This document shows positions 1,382-32,141 of a stretch of DNA of 42,859 nt, in pieces. A program made the position numbers and the translations under genes. The notes under the pieces were generated by a model, which saw only the letters and a program-made list of their open reading frames with translations, was not told the origin of the DNA and did no database searches. This stretch comes from a virus, in the IMG/VR virus record IMGVR_UViG_3300047443_000290, positions 1 to 42,859 of that record; one strand, given 5' to 3'. The stretch's first letter is position 1; every line of letters begins with the position of its first letter.

Positions 1382-3658
1382 TTACGCGGTCTTCACGATC
1401 ACGATGGCGCGGCCGTCGGCCTCGATCGCGATGACCTTGCCGACGGCGCGCATGTAGTTCGCCAGCGTCATGTCCGCTTCGTTCATGGGCACGCCCTTGA
1501 TACTGTCGCCGTCCTGCACCGCGACGATGTACTGGCCAGGCTGTGCATTCAGCACGTTCACAGGCACGCGGCCCGCGAAAGCGATGCGGTCGACCGTGGT
1601 GCGTGCCTCCTCGTAATCGGCGTCGAACTTCTCGTTCGCCTTCTGCCACGCGTCCATCGCCGCCTTGTGGTCCTTGCGGGCCTGCTCGACCTGCGCCTTG
1701 TACGCTGCGCGGTCGGCTGCTTCCTGTTCCTGCACGGCCTGCCAGTTGGTGAACGCCTTTTCGAAGTTCTCCATGCGCGTCGCGTCGACGTCGGGGATGC
1801 CCAGCTCTTCCGGCGGCATCGGCGGGCGGCCAGCCGTCACGCCGGTGTAATCCGGTTCGACGTACACGGGCTGGTCTGGGCGCGGGCCCAGCGAAAGCGA
1901 CCACGTGTCGCCGCCGACGTACGACGGGTCGGTCGACTTGATGACGAAGGTCAGCGCGTCGGCCCAGCGGTCGGTGATCTGGCCGCCGGCGATGATGCCG
2001 ACGATCTGGCCCTTCGCGATGGTGCCCACGCCGGCCGCCTTGCGCATGTATTCGGCATAGTCGGCGCCGCCGGTGTTCAGTGTGCCGGCGCAGTTGATGG
2101 ACCGGCCGTTACCGGAGTTCATGCCCATCGTAATGGCCGCGGCGGCGCCGTTGAACGTGCCGGCCGTCGCATGCTGGACGTACAGTACCGTGCCGCCCGC
2201 GCCCTGGACGGTCAGGATCACGCCGCCTTGCACGGTGCCGGCCTTGTTGATCAGGTGGTTCGCGCCGGACGAAGCGCCCATGAAACAGTTGCCAGACGTG
2301 TCCATCCCGAGGCCGCTGACGCCACCGGGCGTGTTCACGCCGTATTGCGTCGCCGTGTAGCGTGTGGACCAGCCGAATCGGTTTTCGACCTTCCCGACCG
2401 GATCCTCGATCACGTAGTTTTTCGCGCCGGCGTCCGACACCGACGCGGTGCAGTTGTCGTTGTGGTTCGCGATCGCGTGGAACAATTGGTACGTGTTGTC
2501 GGTGCTTTGGGCTTCGATCTGCGCCTGGAACAGTTCGATGTAGTTGTGGCCGATCTTCTCGCCCACGACGCTCGGGCCCAGCGTGATGCCCACGCCGACC
2601 TGGGCGCCGGCCGCGCCGCTGGAGCTCTGCAGCAGGTTCGCGAAATACGAGTTCGCGCCACCCTTATTCACCTTGATGGGCCGGTTCGACAGGATGTTGT
2701 TCCGGTGGAATCGGCAGATTTGAAGACCCTGCGTCGTGGTTTCCGTGATGCCGTTGGCGAACGCAAACCCGCTGTCGCCGATCGTGTTGTTGTCGATCGT
2801 GTGCGCGTAGGCGCCAGGCACGAATGCATTGGTGACCGGATCGAGGTCGGTGAGCAGGATGCCAATACCGTTGTTGTTCGACCCCGACAGCAGGTAGCAG
2901 TCGTGCACGTTGGCGCGGCCCGCATAAATGCGGATCGGAACCTGCGTGGCCGTCGACGGACGGAAAATGATGTTCGACACCTCGCACTGCTGGTGCGCGA
3001 TGCGCAGCATGTCGAAGGTAGCGCCGTCGGGCGCGGTGATATACGTGCCGTACCTCGAGGCGCCGCGCACCCGCATACCCTTGCCGGTGGTGACGATTGG
3101 TTGCGAGATACGATAGTTCCCCGGCGGGAGAATGAGCTCGCCGGCGAACGTCGTGAAGCACGCCATGCCGGCCTGCAGGGCGGCCGTCACGTCGGTGGGC
3201 ACGCCGTTGCGCACGTTGGCGATTTGATCGGACGTCATGAAGTCGAACGCGCTCACAGAATCGCGGCCGCGATCCAGCAGGGTGCGCGCCTGGGCGCCAG
3301 CGCCTGAAGCATTGAAGCCGACCAGGTTCGCACCGGTGGGGGCGGCCAGCTGCGGCTGGATGTTGCGTAGCCCGGCCGGGTCGGTGCTGTAGTTGTCGAC
3401 CGGATAGCCGCTGACCTGCTGGCCCGCGGCGGTCTTCAGGTCGACCTTGTAGGCGCCGTCCCAGAAAATGGCGGCTTCGCCCTTCGCGTCCAGCGTAATC
3501 GGCCACTGGTGCGGGACCGTGCCGGCGGCGTCCTGGTACACCGCTTTCGGCGTCGTGGTGCCGGCGGCATAGGTATACAGCTTGCAGCCGGCCGCGGGCG
3601 TGCCGTCGTTGTTGTAGTAGCGCTGCCGGCCTTCCGGCATGAGGGTAGTGGTTGCCAT
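1382..3658 (-). CDS. Tailspike/tail fibre with beta-helix body and Peptidase_G2-like C-terminus
   Basis: This 758-residue protein is the likely receptor-binding tailspike. Residues 1-105 (MPEGRQRYYNNDGTPAAGCKL, TTTPKAVYQDAAGT) match the common head-proximal domain of podoviral tail fibres. About residues 140-400 are rich in short repeats typical of a right-handed beta-helix of the pectate-lyase 3 type (ALQAGMACF, ELILPPGNYRIS, VHDCYLLSGSNNNGIGILL). The C-terminal part has the GADYAEYMRK...GTIAKGQIVGI...DPSYVGGDTW pattern of self-processing intramolecular-chaperone (Peptidase_G2-like) tail ends. That domain is interrupted by a charged coiled coil at about 640-690. An AAGGA ribosome site lies seven bases before the ATG. 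Enzymatic activity on a host glycan is inference only. Confidence 0.85.
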   Translation of the reverse strand: MATTTLMPEGRQRYYNNDGTPAAGCKLYTYAAGTTTPKAVYQDAAGTVPHQWPITLDAKGEAAIFWDGAYKVDLKTAAGQQVSGYPVDNYSTDPAGLRNIQPQLAAPTGANLVGFNASGAGAQARTLLDRGRDSVSAFDFMTSDQIANVRNGVPTDVTAALQAGMACFTTFAGELILPPGNYRISQPIVTTGKGMRVRGASRYGTYITAPDGATFDMLRIAHQQCEVSNIIFRPSTATQVPIRIYAGRANVHDCYLLSGSNNNGIGILLTDLDPVTNAFVPGAYAHTIDNNTIGDSGFAFANGITETTTQGLQICRFHRNNILSNRPIKVNKGGANSYFANLLQSSSGAAGAQVGVGITLGPSVVGEKIGHNYIELFQAQIEAQSTDNTYQLFHAIANHNDNCTASVSDAGAKNYVIEDPVGKVENRFGWSTRYTATQYGVNTPGGVSGLGMDTSGNCFMGASSGANHLINKAGTVQGGVILTVQGAGGTVLYVQHATAGTFNGAAAAITMGMNSGNGRSINCAGTLNTGGADYAEYMRKAAGVGTIAKGQIVGIIAGGQITDRWADALTFVIKSTDPSYVGGDTWSLSLGPRPDQPVYVEPDYTGVTAGRPPMPPEELGIPDVDATRMENFEKAFTNWQAVQEQEAADRAAYKAQVEQARKDHKAAMDAWQKANEKFDADYEEARTTVDRIAFAGRVPVNVLNAQPGQYIVAVQDGDSIKGVPMNEADMTLANYMRAVGKVIAIEADGRAIVIVKTA

Positions 3659-6281: not shown

Positions 6282-6899
6282 CTACTTCAACTGCGGTTCG
6301 ATGCTTTCGATCAGGTCCATCTGGTCCGGCGCGGTCAGCAACTTCTGCCGGCCAACCTCGATGCGCACCCAGTCCTCGTCCGTCGTCTCGCGCACACGGG
6401 CGCGCTCGGCAAACCCGACGACCTCACCGATTCGATCCGGCGTCATCAGGTCCAGGTGTGGCACGCCCGCGTAGCAGTCGAACAGCTGGTAGATCGTGGG
6501 CAGAGACCAGCCGCGATCCGTCATCAGGTCGATGGCGGCGTGGTACAGACCGCGCCGGTCGCGTACCGTGCTTTGGCTCTTCGGCCGGCGCGGGCGAAGA
6601 GCCGCCTCCATCTTATTGAAGGCGGCGATGAACTTCTCTTTCCACTCGGCAGCTTGCCGGCCGGTGAAGCCCATGGCCAGCATGCTGAAGCCGTCGCGGG
6701 TCATCAGGAACATCGGCTGTTGCTTTCCACGTCGGTCGCGGTAGTTTGACGGCGCAAAATTGCGCCGCGAGAATTCCTCGGAGCACTCCATATTCCGGAT
6801 TGCTTTGAGCGCGTCCTTATGACCCTTGCCGAATTTCTCAGCAACCAGGACAGATGTCGTCCACGGTTGGCCGTCGATGGTCTGGATCAGGTCGTTCAT
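6282..6899 (-). CDS. Rha-family phage regulatory protein
   Basis: The 205-residue protein carries the Rha domain in its first 100 residues: TSVLVAEKFGKGHKDALKAIRNM, then SNYRDRRGKQQPMFLMTRDGFSMLAMGFTG and WKEKFIAAFNKME. Rha-type proteins are phage regulators that often occur next to antirepressor (BRO/Ant) genes and can act as antirepressors themselves. The C-terminal 100 residues (after RPKSQS) are not recognised. The ATG at 6899 overlaps the upstream BRO-N stop (ATGA), so the two are co-translated. The gene is the last of the immI-like operon before the terminator. Confidence 0.85.
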   Translation of the reverse strand: MNDLIQTIDGQPWTTSVLVAEKFGKGHKDALKAIRNMECSEEFSRRNFAPSNYRDRRGKQQPMFLMTRDGFSMLAMGFTGRQAAEWKEKFIAAFNKMEAALRPRRPKSQSTVRDRRGLYHAAIDLMTDRGWSLPTIYQLFDCYAGVPHLDLMTPDRIGEVVGFAERARVRETTDEDWVRIEVGRQKLLTAPDQMDLIESIEPQLK

Positions 6900-7468
6900 G
6901 CGCGTACTCTCCGCACATGGTTTTCGACCCAGGGCGCCAGGCGCTCCGAGGCGGCCGCGATAATCTTCGGCAGCAGGTCGATCGGAATCTGCGCCGGCTC
7001 GCGCACCAACTTCGGCAGCTCCTCGGCCCGGATCAGGTAGCAGCCGGCGGCACCAAGCTGGAATGTGATCTGGCCGCCTACCACCTTCACGTACCACAGG
7101 CCATCCCGGAGCGGCGAGGGCTGGGATTCGACTTGCATGCCGCCCACCTCGTGATCAAGGATATCCAGCACCCAGCGGCGGAACGCCTTCGCGACAGCGG
7201 TGCGCGCGAACATTGCAATCAGGTGGGCGCCGCGCAGGCTGAACAGGCGAATCTCCCGCTGCAGCCCCGAGACCCTCAACTTGAGGGTCTGGGTCATACA
7301 CGGGGAAAATTCATCCTGGTTGCGCTCGTAAATCTGCGTGACCTTGTCGGCGCGGCTGTAGCCGAGTGCTTCGGCAATCTCGGCCGCGCGCAGCCAAACT
7401 TGGCCGGCGCGCTGCACCACGTCAAAAGTCATGGATTGGAACGTCAGGGTGGGTGTGATAGAGTTCAT
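6896..7468 (-). CDS. BRO-N domain protein, antirepressor type
   Basis: This 190-residue protein begins with a BRO-N domain: LTFQSMTFDVVQRAGQVWLRAAEIAEALGYSRADKVTQI, then YERNQDEFS and LFSLRGAHLIAMFARTAVAKAFRRWVLDIL. BRO-N proteins such as P22 Ant are DNA- or repressor-binding antirepressors. The C-terminal 70 residues (WYVKVVGGQITFQLGAAGCYLI) are a separate, unrecognised domain. I set the start at the ATG at 7468 because GGAG lies seven bases upstream; an in-frame start at 7495 would overlap the Arc-like gene. Its position directly after an Arc-like gene mirrors arc-ant of P22. Confidence 0.85.
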   Translation of the reverse strand: MNSITPTLTFQSMTFDVVQRAGQVWLRAAEIAEALGYSRADKVTQIYERNQDEFSPCMTQTLKLRVSGLQREIRLFSLRGAHLIAMFARTAVAKAFRRWVLDILDHEVGGMQVESQPSPLRDGLWYVKVVGGQITFQLGAAGCYLIRAEELPKLVREPAQIPIDLLPKIIAAASERLAPWVENHVRRVRA

Positions 7469-28431: not shown

Positions 28432-28458
28432 AAAAAAGCCGCAGCGCTTACTGCGGCT
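28432..28458 (-). terminator. Terminator at the end of cro, stop codon in its loop
   Basis: AGCCGCAG (28437-28444) and CTGCGGCT (28451-28458) form a perfect 8-bp stem with a 6-base loop that contains the cro TAA stop. On the minus strand TTTTTT follows. It occupies the place of lambda tR1 and would stop most PR transcripts unless antiterminated. The following 28329-28431 holds no gene. Confidence 0.85.
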
Positions 28459-28675
28459 GGGATTCAGACTGGGCTGGTGCCGACGAGGCGGCGGCAACCT
28501 CTTCCGCGAAGCGGCTCAGGTTGATGAGGACCGAACTCTTCGGATCCTCGTGGCCGCCAGACAGAATTCGGCTGATGGTTGGCTGCGATACGCCAGCGCG
28601 TTTCGCGATTGCCGCTTGTGACTGGCCGCGCTCGATCAGGAACTGAACATACGCTTGCGGGGTTTGAAGTTGCAT
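28448..28675 (-). CDS. Cro-like repressor
   Basis: The 75-residue protein carries a helix-turn-helix (GQSQAAIAKRAGVSQPTISRILSGG, residues 17-41) in an otherwise short helical fold, with an Ala/Ser/Gln tail. It is the first gene on the minus strand from the PR-type promoter and faces CI across three operators, the position of cro. The HTH resembles that of the CI protein here (GVPQPTIHRILTGES), consistent with both reading the same operators. No Shine-Dalgarno is evident before the ATG. Confidence 0.83.
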   Translation of the reverse strand: MQLQTPQAYVQFLIERGQSQAAIAKRAGVSQPTISRILSGGHEDPKSSVLINLSRFAEEVAAASSAPAQSESQPQ

Positions 28676-28702: not shown

Positions 28703-28730
28703 ATTCTATACGAAAGCGTATCGGTGTCAA
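28703..28730 (-). promoter_or_regulatory. PR-type promoter for cro and the leftward early operon
   Basis: On the minus strand TTGACA (28730-28725) is followed after 16 bases by TAGAAT (28708-28703), giving a start near 28696. Operator 1 fills the spacer and operator 2 abuts the -35 box, so CI binding should block it. Confidence 0.75.
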
Positions 28731-28775
28731 TGCGAAACCGTATAAGGAATTGCGATTATGTATGCGTTGACGCAT
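28708..28775. promoter_or_regulatory. Three CI/Cro operators between cro and cI (OR-like)
   Basis: Three related 14-base sites follow the plan AT(A/G)CG-N4-CG(T/C)AT: ATACGAAAGCGTAT (28708-28721), ATGCGAAACCGTAT (28730-28743, one arm base off) and ATGCGTTGACGCAT (28762-28775). Centre distances are 22 and 32 bases. The third site lies just before the chosen cI start, where it could serve autoregulation. A weak rightward -10 (TATAAG, 28741-28746) could be PRM. Confidence 0.8.
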
Positions 28776-28784
28776 ATTTGCAGG

Positions 28785-29495
28785 ATGAGCAATCCTGTTT
28801 CCATCGTCCAAAAAAACCTCGAGTGGCTAATGGCCCAGAGGAAGACGAACCCATACGAACTGCAGCGCATCACCGGCGTGCCGCAGCCGACCATTCATCG
28901 AATCCTGACGGGCGAGAGCAACGACCCAAGGACGAAGACGCTACAGCCGCTGGCCGACTATTTCGGCGTGCCGTTGGCGGACTTGCGCGAGCGTGATTTG
29001 TCTGAGCCTGGTGATGCGCTGGAAGGTCTCAAGCCCGGTTCGTATGTGCGGGTCGAGGAAGTCCGCCAGGGAGACGAACGATTCACGCTCATTCCGAAGG
29101 TGCGACTGCGCCTGACGGCCGGCATCAGTGGCTTCGAAGTGGAGCCTGAGCCATTCGACGGGACGACGGCTGCAGTGCCGACTGGATGGATCGAGCGCAA
29201 CGGGTACGATCGCAGCAAGCTGATCGCCATCATGGTGCGCGGCGAGAGCATGGAGCAGACGTTTTATGAGGGCGACTTGGTTGTCGTGAATACGGCAGAC
29301 CAGAAGCTGGTCGACGGCGTCGTGTATGCGGTCAATTACGAGGGCGAGCCCGTGGTGAAGCGCCTGACGCGCGACGCCGGTCAATGGTGGCTGACGTCGG
29401 ACAATCCGGACCAGCGCAAGTACTACAGAAGGACGTGCGACGAGAGCACGAAGATCATCGGCCGCGTCGTGCGGAAGGAAAGCGAGCGGTTTTGA
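28785..29495 (+). CDS. cI: CI-type repressor with LexA-like autoprotease domain
   Basis: The 236-residue protein maintains lysogeny. Residues 7-60 are a helix-turn-helix domain (LQRITGVPQPTIHRILTGES), and the C-terminal half is an S24 peptidase: cleavage site Ala112-Gly113 (RLTAGISG), catalytic Ser155 in VRGESMEQTF, and Lys192 in EPVVKRLTR. DNA damage and RecA should therefore trigger self-cleavage and induction. I start at ATG 28785; an upstream in-frame ATG (28758) has a better AAGGAA site, but would translate through operator 3. The stop overlaps the next gene (TGATG), linking the downstream cassette to lysogenic expression. Confidence 0.9.
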   Translation: MSNPVSIVQKNLEWLMAQRKTNPYELQRITGVPQPTIHRILTGESNDPRTKTLQPLADYFGVPLADLRERDLSEPGDALEGLKPGSYVRVEEVRQGDERFTLIPKVRLRLTAGISGFEVEPEPFDGTTAAVPTGWIERNGYDRSKLIAIMVRGESMEQTFYEGDLVVVNTADQKLVDGVVYAVNYEGEPVVKRLTRDAGQWWLTSDNPDQRKYYRRTCDESTKIIGRVVRKESERF

Positions 29496-29767
29496 TGATG
29501 TATTCGATTCAACGCCTGTGCGACGAGCGCGTGGCGGTAGTGTTGGTAGAGCGCCGCGCGCTGTCCGAGCCGCAGGCCAGCGGCCTGCTGCAGCAGCTGC
29601 GGGACGAACTTTCGGCGCCGGTGATGTTGGTGGCGCGCGACAGTGAGGGGTGGTTAGGGATCCGTGCGCGCGCGGAATTCGACCCCGAGCCGTACATCTA
29701 TGCGCTGCTGGGCATGCGCGATATCGAATGGGCGCCGTTGCGCCGCCGATGCGAGACGGAGGCCTGA
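29495..29767 (+). CDS. cI-linked small protein A, paralogue of the next gene
   Basis: The 90-residue product is coupled to cI by TGATG. It reads ERVAVVLVERRALSEPQASGLLQQLRDELSAPVMLVARDSEGWLGIR...YIYALLGMRDIEWAPL: a strand, a helix, a strand pair and a final strand. Its neighbour repeats the plan (IVAVQV..AQLSGPDAAALLARLE...RPVVLVAWDEN...DDLEW), so the two are tandem duplicates that have diverged. I recognise no family. Expression with cI in the lysogen suggests the position of lambda rexA. Confidence 0.7.
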   Translation: MMYSIQRLCDERVAVVLVERRALSEPQASGLLQQLRDELSAPVMLVARDSEGWLGIRARAEFDPEPYIYALLGMRDIEWAPLRRRCETEA

Positions 29768-30024
29768 TGTTCAACGCCATCATCCCGCTAGCCCAGCCCA
29801 TCGTTGCTGTGCAGGTAGACGCCGCCCAACTGTCCGGCCCAGATGCCGCCGCGCTGCTAGCGCGTCTTGAGATCCACTTCATGCGGCCGGTCGTGCTGGT
29901 GGCGTGGGATGAGAACTCTCGGTTCTTGAGCCTCGGATATCCGTGTTCCGAAGACGCGCTTACGAACGACGATCTCGAATGGCGCCAATTTGAATTGCCG
30001 CCTGAGCCAGAAGTCCCTTTTTGA
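29767..30024 (+). CDS. cI-linked small protein B, paralogue of the preceding gene
   Basis: The 85-residue protein starts inside the previous stop (TGATG) and shares with it the layout VAVxV--LS-PxAxxLLxxL----PVxLVAxD and a final DLEW/DIEW motif. It lacks the preceding protein's RARAEF...YALL insert and has an acidic Pro-rich end (PPEPEVPF). Two different paralogues kept side by side suggest a heteromer or a regulator pair, but no function can be read from the sequence. Confidence 0.7.
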   Translation: MFNAIIPLAQPIVAVQVDAAQLSGPDAAALLARLEIHFMRPVVLVAWDENSRFLSLGYPCSEDALTNDDLEWRQFELPPEPEVPF

Positions 30025-30045
30025 TCTGCGAAATTCGGAGAGAGC

Positions 30046-30348
30046 GTGAAAAGACTGTGTTTATTGGTTCCGATGATGTTGGTTGGCTGTGCCGTTCCAC
30101 TCACACCAGGAGCAGAAAAGGTGCAGCTGGTATCAGCTCAGCAGAAAGAGAAATGCGAGCGACTTAAGCTGGTAACGTTCAATCAGCGGATCGGTCCAGA
30201 TAAGCCCGGCAACGCTATGAAGAGTGCATTGAACGAAGCAGCAGCGGCTGGGGCCGACTCGTTCTACGTTGTGTCCAGCACGATGGACTGGGCAGAGGGC
30301 GCTTCTGTCGTTGGAGAGGCGCTTCGCTGTAATAAGGTTACGCAATAA
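30046..30348 (+). CDS. DUF4156-like lipoprotein
   Basis: The 100-residue product has a lipoprotein signal (MKRLCLLVPMMLVGC, lipobox Leu12-Val13-Gly14-Cys15). The mature part matches DUF4156-type lipoproteins: VQLVSAQQKEKCERLKLVTFN, then ALNEAAAAGADSFYVVSSTMDWAEGASVVGEALRC. With no Asp after the Cys, outer-membrane sorting is likely. The GTG start has GGAG six bases upstream. Phage-borne lipoproteins of lysogens often block superinfection or alter the surface; its place downstream of cI fits that, but it is inference. Confidence 0.75.
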   Translation: MKRLCLLVPMMLVGCAVPLTPGAEKVQLVSAQQKEKCERLKLVTFNQRIGPDKPGNAMKSALNEAAAAGADSFYVVSSTMDWAEGASVVGEALRCNKVTQ

Positions 30349-30361
30349 AAAATATCAACGC

Positions 30362-30377
30362 TTCGTTAGATAACGAA
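30362..30377. promoter_or_regulatory. 16-base palindrome before the membrane coiled-coil gene
   Basis: TTCGTTA (30362-30368) and TAACGAA (30371-30377) form a perfect inverted repeat around GA, just ahead of the GTG start; its right arm reaches into the Shine-Dalgarno (AAAGGGA). It could be an operator or an RNA hairpin that hides the ribosome site. Confidence 0.45.
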
Positions 30378-30387
30378 AGGGACTTTT

Positions 30388-31014
30388 GTGGATTTCACCA
30401 CTGCTTTAACAAAAATTGTCGAAGCGCTCGCCTGGCCGGCAACGGTGCTAGTTGCCGTTTTCATGTTTAGAAACAAGATCGATGGGCTTCTAGACCGAAT
30501 CAAAGCATTTAAAGGCTGGGGCGCCGAAGTTGAGTTGGAAGAAAAAATTCAGATCGCTAAAGCTGAGGCAGTAGTAGCGGGACAAAAGGTGGTCGAGGCG
30601 GCTAATGCACCAGCTGAGCAACGCGAACAAGTAATAACGCAATTCGTAAGAGCGCAAAAAGAGGTCGATAAATTAGTAAACCAGCGACTATACCTCGGTT
30701 CGAAATTGCGCGGGAACGGGTTGACTGAAGGCCGAGAGAGAATATTGCGCGAATTCATCCGTGTGCTTGGGCCAGGTCGTATTGTCGAACTTTCGCACGA
30801 AGATTTACGGAAAAAATGGCCATCGCTTTTGAAAGAGGCCCAGAAGAAATCCCCGCAGTTGCACCACGGGGCAATGCTCGGGCTGCAAAGTGTTGGACTG
30901 ATCGATAATTCAGATCAGCTAACTGTGCTTGGCTCCGAGATTTTTGCTGTTCTTGCACGGGAAATGCAGCTTTACGAATTTGAAAACCCAGGGGCGGCGC
31001 AGCCTGTGAAGTAG
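30388..31014 (+). CDS. Membrane-anchored coiled-coil protein, unknown function
   Basis: The 208-residue protein has one N-terminal membrane segment (IVEALAWPATVLVAVFMF, residues 10-27), then a basic hinge, a coiled coil (VELEEKIQIAKAEAVVAGQKVVEAANAPAEQREQVITQFVRAQKEVDKLVNQRLYL, about 47-105), and a C-terminal globular domain (RERILREFIRVLGPGRIVELSHEDLRKKWPSLLKEAQK...GAMLGLQSVGLIDNSDQLTVLGSEIFAVLAREM) that looks like a winged helix. AT-richer codon use sets it apart from neighbours. The GTG start has AAAGGGA upstream. It is the last gene before the terminator; a membrane-located exclusion or sensing role is possible. Confidence 0.72.
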   Translation: MDFTTALTKIVEALAWPATVLVAVFMFRNKIDGLLDRIKAFKGWGAEVELEEKIQIAKAEAVVAGQKVVEAANAPAEQREQVITQFVRAQKEVDKLVNQRLYLGSKLRGNGLTEGRERILREFIRVLGPGRIVELSHEDLRKKWPSLLKEAQKKSPQLHHGAMLGLQSVGLIDNSDQLTVLGSEIFAVLAREMQLYEFENPGAAQPVK

Positions 31015-31037: not shown

Positions 31038-31063
31038 AAGCCCCGCAACCCGGGGCTTTTTTT
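31038..31063 (+). terminator. Strong terminator of the cI operon
   Basis: AAGCCCCG (31038-31045) and CGGGGCTT (31051-31058) form a perfect 8-bp stem with a 5-base loop (CAACC), followed by a run of seven T. It isolates the cI cassette from the PL-type promoter downstream. Confidence 0.92.
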
Positions 31064-31155
31064 CGTCCTGACGTAGCCGCAGTACGCCCGCCCGGTTCTT
31101 ACTCAGGGCCTCCCCGCCCGGTTAATACGAAAGCTCATCGCCCACAGCAAAAATT

Positions 31156-31197
31156 ATACGTTTTCGCATTGACATTCGTAATACGCAATCGTATAGT
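31156..31197 (+). promoter_or_regulatory. PL-type promoter with two CI operators (OL-like)
   Basis: TTGACA (31169-31174) and TATAGT (31192-31197) are 17 bases apart; transcription should start near 31204. Two sites of the same family as at 28.7 kb flank the boxes: ATACGTTTTCGCAT (31156-31169) and ATACGCAATCGTAT (31181-31194). The first is nearly the reverse complement of operator 2 at 28730-28743. CI can thus silence the early-right operon and perhaps loop to the cro/cI operators 2.4 kb away. Confidence 0.85.
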
Positions 31198-31784: not shown

Positions 31785-32141
31785 CCAAACCGGAGCGCCG
31801 CGCCCCTTCAACGCGCGGCTTGCCCTGCACTCGGGTCGGAAATAGAGGGAGTCGGATCTCAAATGCCGTGACGGCCTGGAACAGACAGGCACCACAGAGC
31901 AAGGGCGGCGTGGAAAGCAGGAATGCAGAGTATCGCGGACCAGGAGACACGCGGGAAGCGCGGGAACAAGCGCGCATCAGGGCAGGCGAAAGCCGACGAG
32001 GTTCCGGGCATCGGCACAGTCACCGCGGACGCGGCGAAGACCCGAGAAGCGCACCGATGCCACAGCTGGAGTAGCGCCCAGCCCCTTGCTCTGTGGTCAA
32101 CAACAACCGCCGGCGGCGCCGGCCAGAACAGGAGCAGCAGG
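31785..32141 (+). other. Gene-poor stretch with hairpin and a possible Arg-rich frame
   Basis: A 7-bp stem (GCCGCGC 31797-31803 with GCGCGGC 31813-31819, 9-base loop) follows the preceding gene without a T-run. Beyond it, a frame from a GTG at 31868 to 32074 would encode 68 residues with an Arg-rich helix (DTREAREQARIRAGESRRG) reminiscent of N-type RNA-binding motifs, but it lacks a good ribosome site. Nothing else is supported here. Confidence 0.35.

Follow-up and report, generated by a model that had tools for sequence, protein, structure and literature searches.

Do the genes that follow the repressor gene of a lambda-like temperate phage, in the position that rexAB takes in lambda, form one system, or do they only share a site? 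We address this question in a virus record of 42,859 bases (IMGVR_UViG_3300047443_000290; the whole stretch is referred to here as the window), which encodes terminase, portal, RecT, a lambda-type exonuclease, and, at the right end, a tyrosine integrase. Behind its cI repressor gene lie four open reading frames (ORFs) on the same strand, namely ORF1, ORF2, the predicted lipoprotein gene LP, and ORF4, followed by a terminator and a PL-type promoter. A first-pass annotation, made from the sequence alone, had described all of these features, which are present, and had read the four genes as a single cassette. Judged by their distribution among relatives, the four genes are instead a fixed pair plus a variable slot and not one cassette. 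We consider it moderately probable that the lysogeny operon of this phage combines a fixed cI-ORF1-ORF2 unit with an exchangeable slot for envelope-conversion or superinfection-exclusion genes.

Relatives were collected by a cI profile search of IMG/VR, giving 22 phages with a cI at least 51% identical, the window counted in, and slot contents were compared in 21 of these. In the DNA downstream of cI, profile searches recover ORF1 in 20/22 phages and ORF2 in 19/22; L041 has ORF1 without ORF2, while L046 and L050 are without both. Neither gene is found behind cI homologues of 33 to 37% identity, a search that also covered the annotated VarioGold record, and the pair was not found outside this repressor clade. 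The slot after ORF2 is empty in 7/21 phages (L034, L036, L037, L038, L039, L044, and L050, the last also lacking the pair), in which the promoter begins 100 to 135 bp behind ORF2, or behind cI in L050. It is filled in the remaining 14/21 by at least 10 unrelated families. ORF1-ORF2 are kept in six phages with an empty slot, and the nearest repressor relatives of the window (91 to 92%) have different cargo or none. A G+C-rich hairpin with a T-run, together with a similar promoter, ends the slot in 21/21 phages, including those with empty slots. The gap from ORF2 to the cargo is mostly 11 to 63 nt, and the G+C content of the cargo is mostly 0.47 to 0.59.

By the test that the first-pass annotation itself had named, coinheritance in relatives, the four-gene cassette fails: L047 and L048 have LP but no ORF4, L115 has LP behind an unrelated cI and no pair, and the C-terminal sequence of ORF4 is found, besides the window, only in L002. 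Of the proposal that this is an undescribed lysogenic-conversion or antiphage system, the accessory or lysogenic-conversion site therefore stands, and the single four-gene system does not. The same distribution bears on the mechanism that had been attached to the cassette, a Rex-like two-component exclusion system with ORF1-ORF2 as cytosolic sensors and ORF4 as membrane effector. Position and order are the same as in lambda, a membrane anchor is predicted for ORF4, and neither member of the pair has an export signal. However, the pair persists without ORF4 or any other cargo in the six empty-slot phages, and ORF4 is found in just one other phage. Moreover, RexB is a multispanning membrane ion channel, whereas ORF4 has a single hydrophobic helix, at its N terminus, and is no channel, and no similarity to RexA, RexB, or a listed defense family is found in Pfam, PHROGs, PADLOC, or NCBIfam. 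We regard a Rex-like system as very improbable.

The placement of the slot in the rex position is upheld by the same operators at both ends, the terminator, the PL-like promoter, and the tight spacing behind cI. A Cro-like helix-turn-helix (HTH) protein (28448..28675, - strand; HTH_3 and phrog_6831 transcriptional regulator) is encoded divergently from cI (28785..29495, + strand) and adjoins cI in relatives as well. Between the two genes, an OR-like region (28709..28774) contains three operator-like palindromes TRCGNNNNCGYA, at 28709, 28731, and 28763. Two further copies (31157-31168 and 31182-31193) form OL-like operators at the PL-like promoter (31169-31197, + strand; 11/12 matches, 17-bp spacer), which lies ahead of the RecT/exonuclease operon. 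There are only seven such palindromes in 43 kb, with two elsewhere, and finding 5/7 in the control regions on either side of the cI and slot segment has a chance of about 3e-10 in a simple binomial calculation, for a pattern that was picked after the sites had been seen. The operator-like palindromes at both ends of the cI region mark this as a lambda-type immunity region with a rex-positioned slot. The slot is closed by an intrinsic terminator (31038..31064, + strand; hairpin at 31038-31058 plus a T-run). The features read here, namely OR, cI, accessory slot, terminator, and OL/PL, follow one another as in lambda. The repressor itself has an HTH domain and an S24 peptidase domain (Peptidase_S24, E 2e-20), and A112-G113, S155, and K192 are invariant across 13 aligned sequences, A112-G113 being the probable cleavage site and S155 and K192 the probable dyad. 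By these signatures, cI is a self-cleaving, RecA-cleavable repressor of the S24 type.

Predicted envelope proteins dominate the cargo. The window carries LP and ORF4, and L047 and L048 carry LP alone; other lipoproteins are found in L032, L033, L035, L051, L042, L043, and L016, signal-peptide proteins in L041, L045, and L046 and as the second genes of L032 and L042, and a membrane-anchored protein in L049. About 10 cargo proteins are clear lipoproteins, and the first cargo gene encodes a lipobox, a signal peptide, or a membrane anchor in 14/14 filled slots. With a hydrophobic N-terminal stretch or a lipobox as the criterion, 17/19 cargo proteins are predicted to be exported or membrane anchored, compared to 5/52 proteins of VarioGold (Fisher P = 4e-10). 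One cargo protein is a Rap1a immunity protein of the type VI secretion system (T6SS; E 6e-18) and another is an Adhesin_E protein (E 1e-10). Cargo proteins other than LP make weak contact with the Cor profile, confined to the signal peptide. Rap1a and Adhesin_E are what one would expect if the slot were a general lysogenic-conversion site whose cargo helps the host in competition or stress, through T6SS immunity, adhesion, or resistance to envelope stress, and not against phages, and LP weakly matches DUF4156, a domain also present in Escherichia coli, and BsmA. Most of the cargo, however, has no assigned function, and known cI-operon cargo elsewhere serves mainly phage exclusion, so that we judge this alternative rather unlikely. 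In L046, which lacks ORF1-ORF2, the DNA from the end of cI to about +1290 encodes a Rap1a-type protein immediately after cI and then two more genes; by this content, the L046 prophage may protect its host against contact-dependent killing.

The slot cargo has the patchy presence and the base composition unlike that of the phage that characterize morons. The promoter and terminator of its own that a moron would carry were not found, as the terminator also occurs in empty slots and the 21-nt gap before LP in the window has no promoter-like site.

LP (30046..30348, + strand) lies 21 nt behind ORF2 and is variable cargo. Residues 12 to 15 form the lipobox L-V-G-C (MKRLCLLVPMMLVGC-A, i.e., Ala at +2), and the five other LP proteins have a lipobox as well; this supports the surface-directed lipoprotein proposed earlier. 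The match to Pfam DUF4156 (PF13698) scores 27.4 against a curated cutoff of 28.9 (E 4e-6). LP is under purifying selection, with a ratio of nonsynonymous to synonymous substitution rates (dN/dS) of 0.056; the copies in the window and L048 are 85% identical, against 61% for the cI proteins of these two phages. Two further LP genes are found among late genes, in L009 and L010. In L115 (3264-4535), an LP homologue (44%) overlaps the stop codon of an unrelated S24 repressor gene; the next gene encodes a small protein with a hydrophobic stretch at its N terminus. This repressor shares with the window cI just a 56-residue stretch of the peptidase domain, and the ORF1-ORF2 pair is absent; by this arrangement, L115 is another phage in which cargo of this type fills the corresponding slot. 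Taken at the level of sequence, LP moves horizontally and independently of cI. No match to LP was found in 50,697 phage records or in plasmids, nor by sequence among solved structures.

The other cargo gene of the window, ORF4 (30388..31014, + strand), encodes one predicted N-terminal transmembrane helix and a long helix or coiled coil, followed by C-terminal helices with a small beta wing in a low-confidence model (predicted local distance difference test [pLDDT], 65), in which the C-terminal part is possibly a winged helix. The model gives no usable fold match, the sequence matches nothing among solved structures, and no relative was confirmed in 84,980 genomes with patterns that reach close relatives only. 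L002 alone has a second copy of the C-terminal half, in the same location, with a dN/dS of 0.097; this copy begins inside the gene at a contig end and has stops in its first 36 bases, so the comparison is limited to the C-terminal 111 residues. The N-terminal membrane module has a wider distribution, being common to proteins of about 190 residues that are encoded close to the integrase of Pseudomonas phage UFJF_PfPro, at the ends of IMG/VR phage contigs, and on plasmids beside a restriction endonuclease or a TrlF-type ATPase.

This neighborhood is in keeping with a separate role for ORF4, as a defense or abortive-infection effector that sits in the slot by chance, since its N-terminal module is common to DUF4145/HEPN-like proteins near a phage integrase, at contig ends, and beside plasmid restriction or TrlF genes. 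Its own C-terminal part, however, is without the RNxAxH motif and looks different, and its model, of low confidence, has no fold match; we hold this role to be possible but doubtful. A HEPN RNase function for ORF4 was considered and rejected, as the RNxAxH part belongs to the N-terminal relatives and is absent from ORF4. The relatives were also noted in their own right: L028, L029, L030, L031, and L025-L027 encode such proteins of about 190 residues with the N-terminal membrane module, several ending in a DUF4145/HEPN-like domain with RNxAxH, and this family is, by its domains, a candidate for membrane-anchored defense proteins.

The fixed component is translationally coupled. TGATGATG is the overlap of the cI stop codon with the start of ORF1 (29495..29767, + strand; 89 residues if the start is at 29498, where the two genes would abut, or 90 if it is at 29495), and TGATG is the overlap of the ORF1 stop with the start of ORF2 (29767..30024, + strand; 85 residues). 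Here the first-pass annotation was borne out, as hhalign pairs the coupled tandem genes as paralogues with a probability of 93.6% (E 2e-7) and 29% identity over 70 columns, and the ORF1 profile retrieves the ORF2 family in relatives and vice versa. Compared with relatives, ORF1 has dN/dS values of 0.035 to 0.26 and ORF2 of 0.03 to 0.09; the purifying selection on ORF1, ORF2, LP, and ORF4 supports their coding capacity and indicates that the genes are real. Modeling of ORF1 (pLDDT, 82) gives a small domain of beta-beta-alpha-beta-beta-alpha topology, for which no fold match is convincing: the best E value against PDB is 0.055, nothing falls below 0.001 in a viral library, and the best Z against VIA is 6.8 over 77 residues, to epimerase-type folds. 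Neither protein has a match in 50,697 phage records, and no relative of ORF2 was confirmed in 84,980 genomes, again with patterns limited to close relatives.

What might such a pair do beside a repressor? Pairwise ORF1 distances track those of cI (Mantel r, 0.90), chiefly those of the C-terminal cleavage/dimerization domain, while the value for ORF2 is 0.37. In phage 434, Hex is encoded on the cI mRNA and protects the repressor against RecA-stimulated cleavage (PMC3564112), which makes a Hex-like role the leading guess for ORF1. By analogy, ORF1, possibly with ORF2, could be a repressor accessory such as a modulator of RecA-stimulated cleavage, a suggestion we make tentatively. Hex and ORF1 are both small proteins, and the gene of each immediately follows and overlaps that of an SOS-type repressor; the comparison is one of position and not of sequence, and the Hex ORF has 158 residues, whereas ORF1 and ORF2 have 85 to 90 and are paralogous. 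Alternatively, ORF1-ORF2 might be a toxin-antitoxin-like or exclusion pair separate from repressor function. Two small coupled genes, strongly conserved, positioned for expression with cI, and with ORF1 modeled as a compact alpha/beta protein, would suit such a pair, but mutual paralogues are unusual in toxin-antitoxin systems, no toxin-antitoxin or defense match is found, the genes were not found outside this repressor clade, and L041 does without ORF2. We find this pair unlikely. Whichever function applies, ORF1-ORF2 represent a protein family without annotation that is closely tied to an SOS-type repressor, and they open a testable question about the tuning of prophage induction.

Returning to the fixed unit with an exchangeable slot, we picture the operon in two layers. 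The first, cI-ORF1-ORF2, is translationally coupled and inherited together with this repressor clade; the second is an insertion site between ORF2 and the terminator for cargo genes that have no recognizable promoter of their own. In the lysogen, cI, ORF1, ORF2, and the cargo would lie on one transcript, and the cargo would alter the host envelope; we infer the cotranscription with cI from the coupled or closely spaced starts and from the lack of a promoter-like site in the gap before LP. LP would receive a lipid anchor and travel to the outer membrane, the destination that the E. coli Lol rule assigns to lipoproteins with Ala at +2. ORF4 would have its anchor in the inner membrane and, by the positive-inside rule, its coil and C-terminal domain on the cytoplasmic side. 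LP would most likely block adsorption or DNA entry of competing phages. A bolder form of this proposal, which we offer with considerable reserve, is a dedicated envelope-protein port, in which two paralogous repressor partners tune SOS cleavage and the insertion point takes essentially only exported proteins. If true, a single site would fit the lysogen surface to the prevailing attacker, phage or rival bacterium, with cargo from exclusion lipoproteins to T6SS immunity proteins.

Several points weigh against an exclusion slot of this kind. Envelope proteins could have other uses, such as T6SS immunity, adhesion, or stress, and no proven exclusion lipoprotein is detectably similar to LP, which also has no match to Cor or an exclusion family. 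The export bias rests on a crude criterion, a background of one phage, and cargo ORFs picked by eye among overlapping frames. The relatives are metagenomic contigs, some possibly out of the same populations, and adjacency alone could yield the correlation of ORF1 and cI distances. Finally, a match between LP cargo and the receptor-binding tip of the phage itself is unsupported, as LP carriers are without the variable tip of the window. The gene concerned (1382-3658, - strand) probably encodes, judged from its alignment, a tail fiber with an exchangeable receptor-binding tip, its first ~200 residues being common to many relatives while the remainder differs; the N-terminal part alone matches in L047, and no match is found in the L048 fragment.

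The closest known systems share parts of this arrangement. Accessory genes next to cI in the rex position are already known, and lambdoid phages have a hot spot between cI and N for accessory genes such as rexAB and bstA, a slot for exclusion genes (PMC7067206, PMC8585504). As there, the slot lies between the repressor and the PL region, is mosaic, and is expected to be expressed in the lysogen; the differences are that no sequence similarity is found, that the variable part comes after a fixed pair of paralogues, and that the cargo consists almost entirely of envelope proteins. New here are the cargo families, the pair of fixed paralogues, and the pronounced preference of a single site for envelope proteins. 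Ltp of Streptococcus phage TP-J34 is a superinfection-exclusion lipoprotein of the lysogeny module that blocks DNA injection and is considered a moron (PMC3952083). It resembles LP as a small lipoprotein encoded near the repressor in the lysogeny module, but Ltp is Gram positive and has a repeat domain, LP has no detected similarity to it, and the gap from ORF2 to LP shows no promoter of its own. The Lpp proteins of mEp021 and mEp010 are exclusion lipoproteins of temperate phages that, as here, come in several types per phage group, are Gram negative, and have a lipobox followed by a sorting residue (PMC11893012). The lpp genes, however, lie in the structural cluster and their products target receptor-sharing phages, whereas LP lies in the cI operon and receptor matching is unsupported. 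Gordonia phage CarolAnn gp43 and gp44 are two genes cotranscribed with the repressor, as ORF1 and ORF2 would be, with proven heterotypic defense and a weak DUF4747 match (PMC6426606), a domain type not found here. The clade thus offers a natural series of empty and filled slots, in which the operators and the terminator stay the same and the cargo comes from at least 10 unrelated families; it predicts exclusion by the cargo and makes the slot a potential source of new superinfection-exclusion and lysogenic-conversion proteins.

Two observations lie outside the slot. Within the early operon, about 145 nt (31940-32083) that are apparently noncoding are 82 to 85% identical to similarly placed DNA of the Pseudomonas aeruginosa phages phi297, AUS531phi, and OQ658365, with little match to these phages in the rest of the region. 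This stretch is found in L044 and absent in most relatives; it belongs to no Rfam family, and folding predictions give its RNA no greater stability than shuffled sequence. Among the late genes, positions 6282-7097 (- strand) encode a Rha-type phage regulatory protein (Phage_pRha, E 5e-29).

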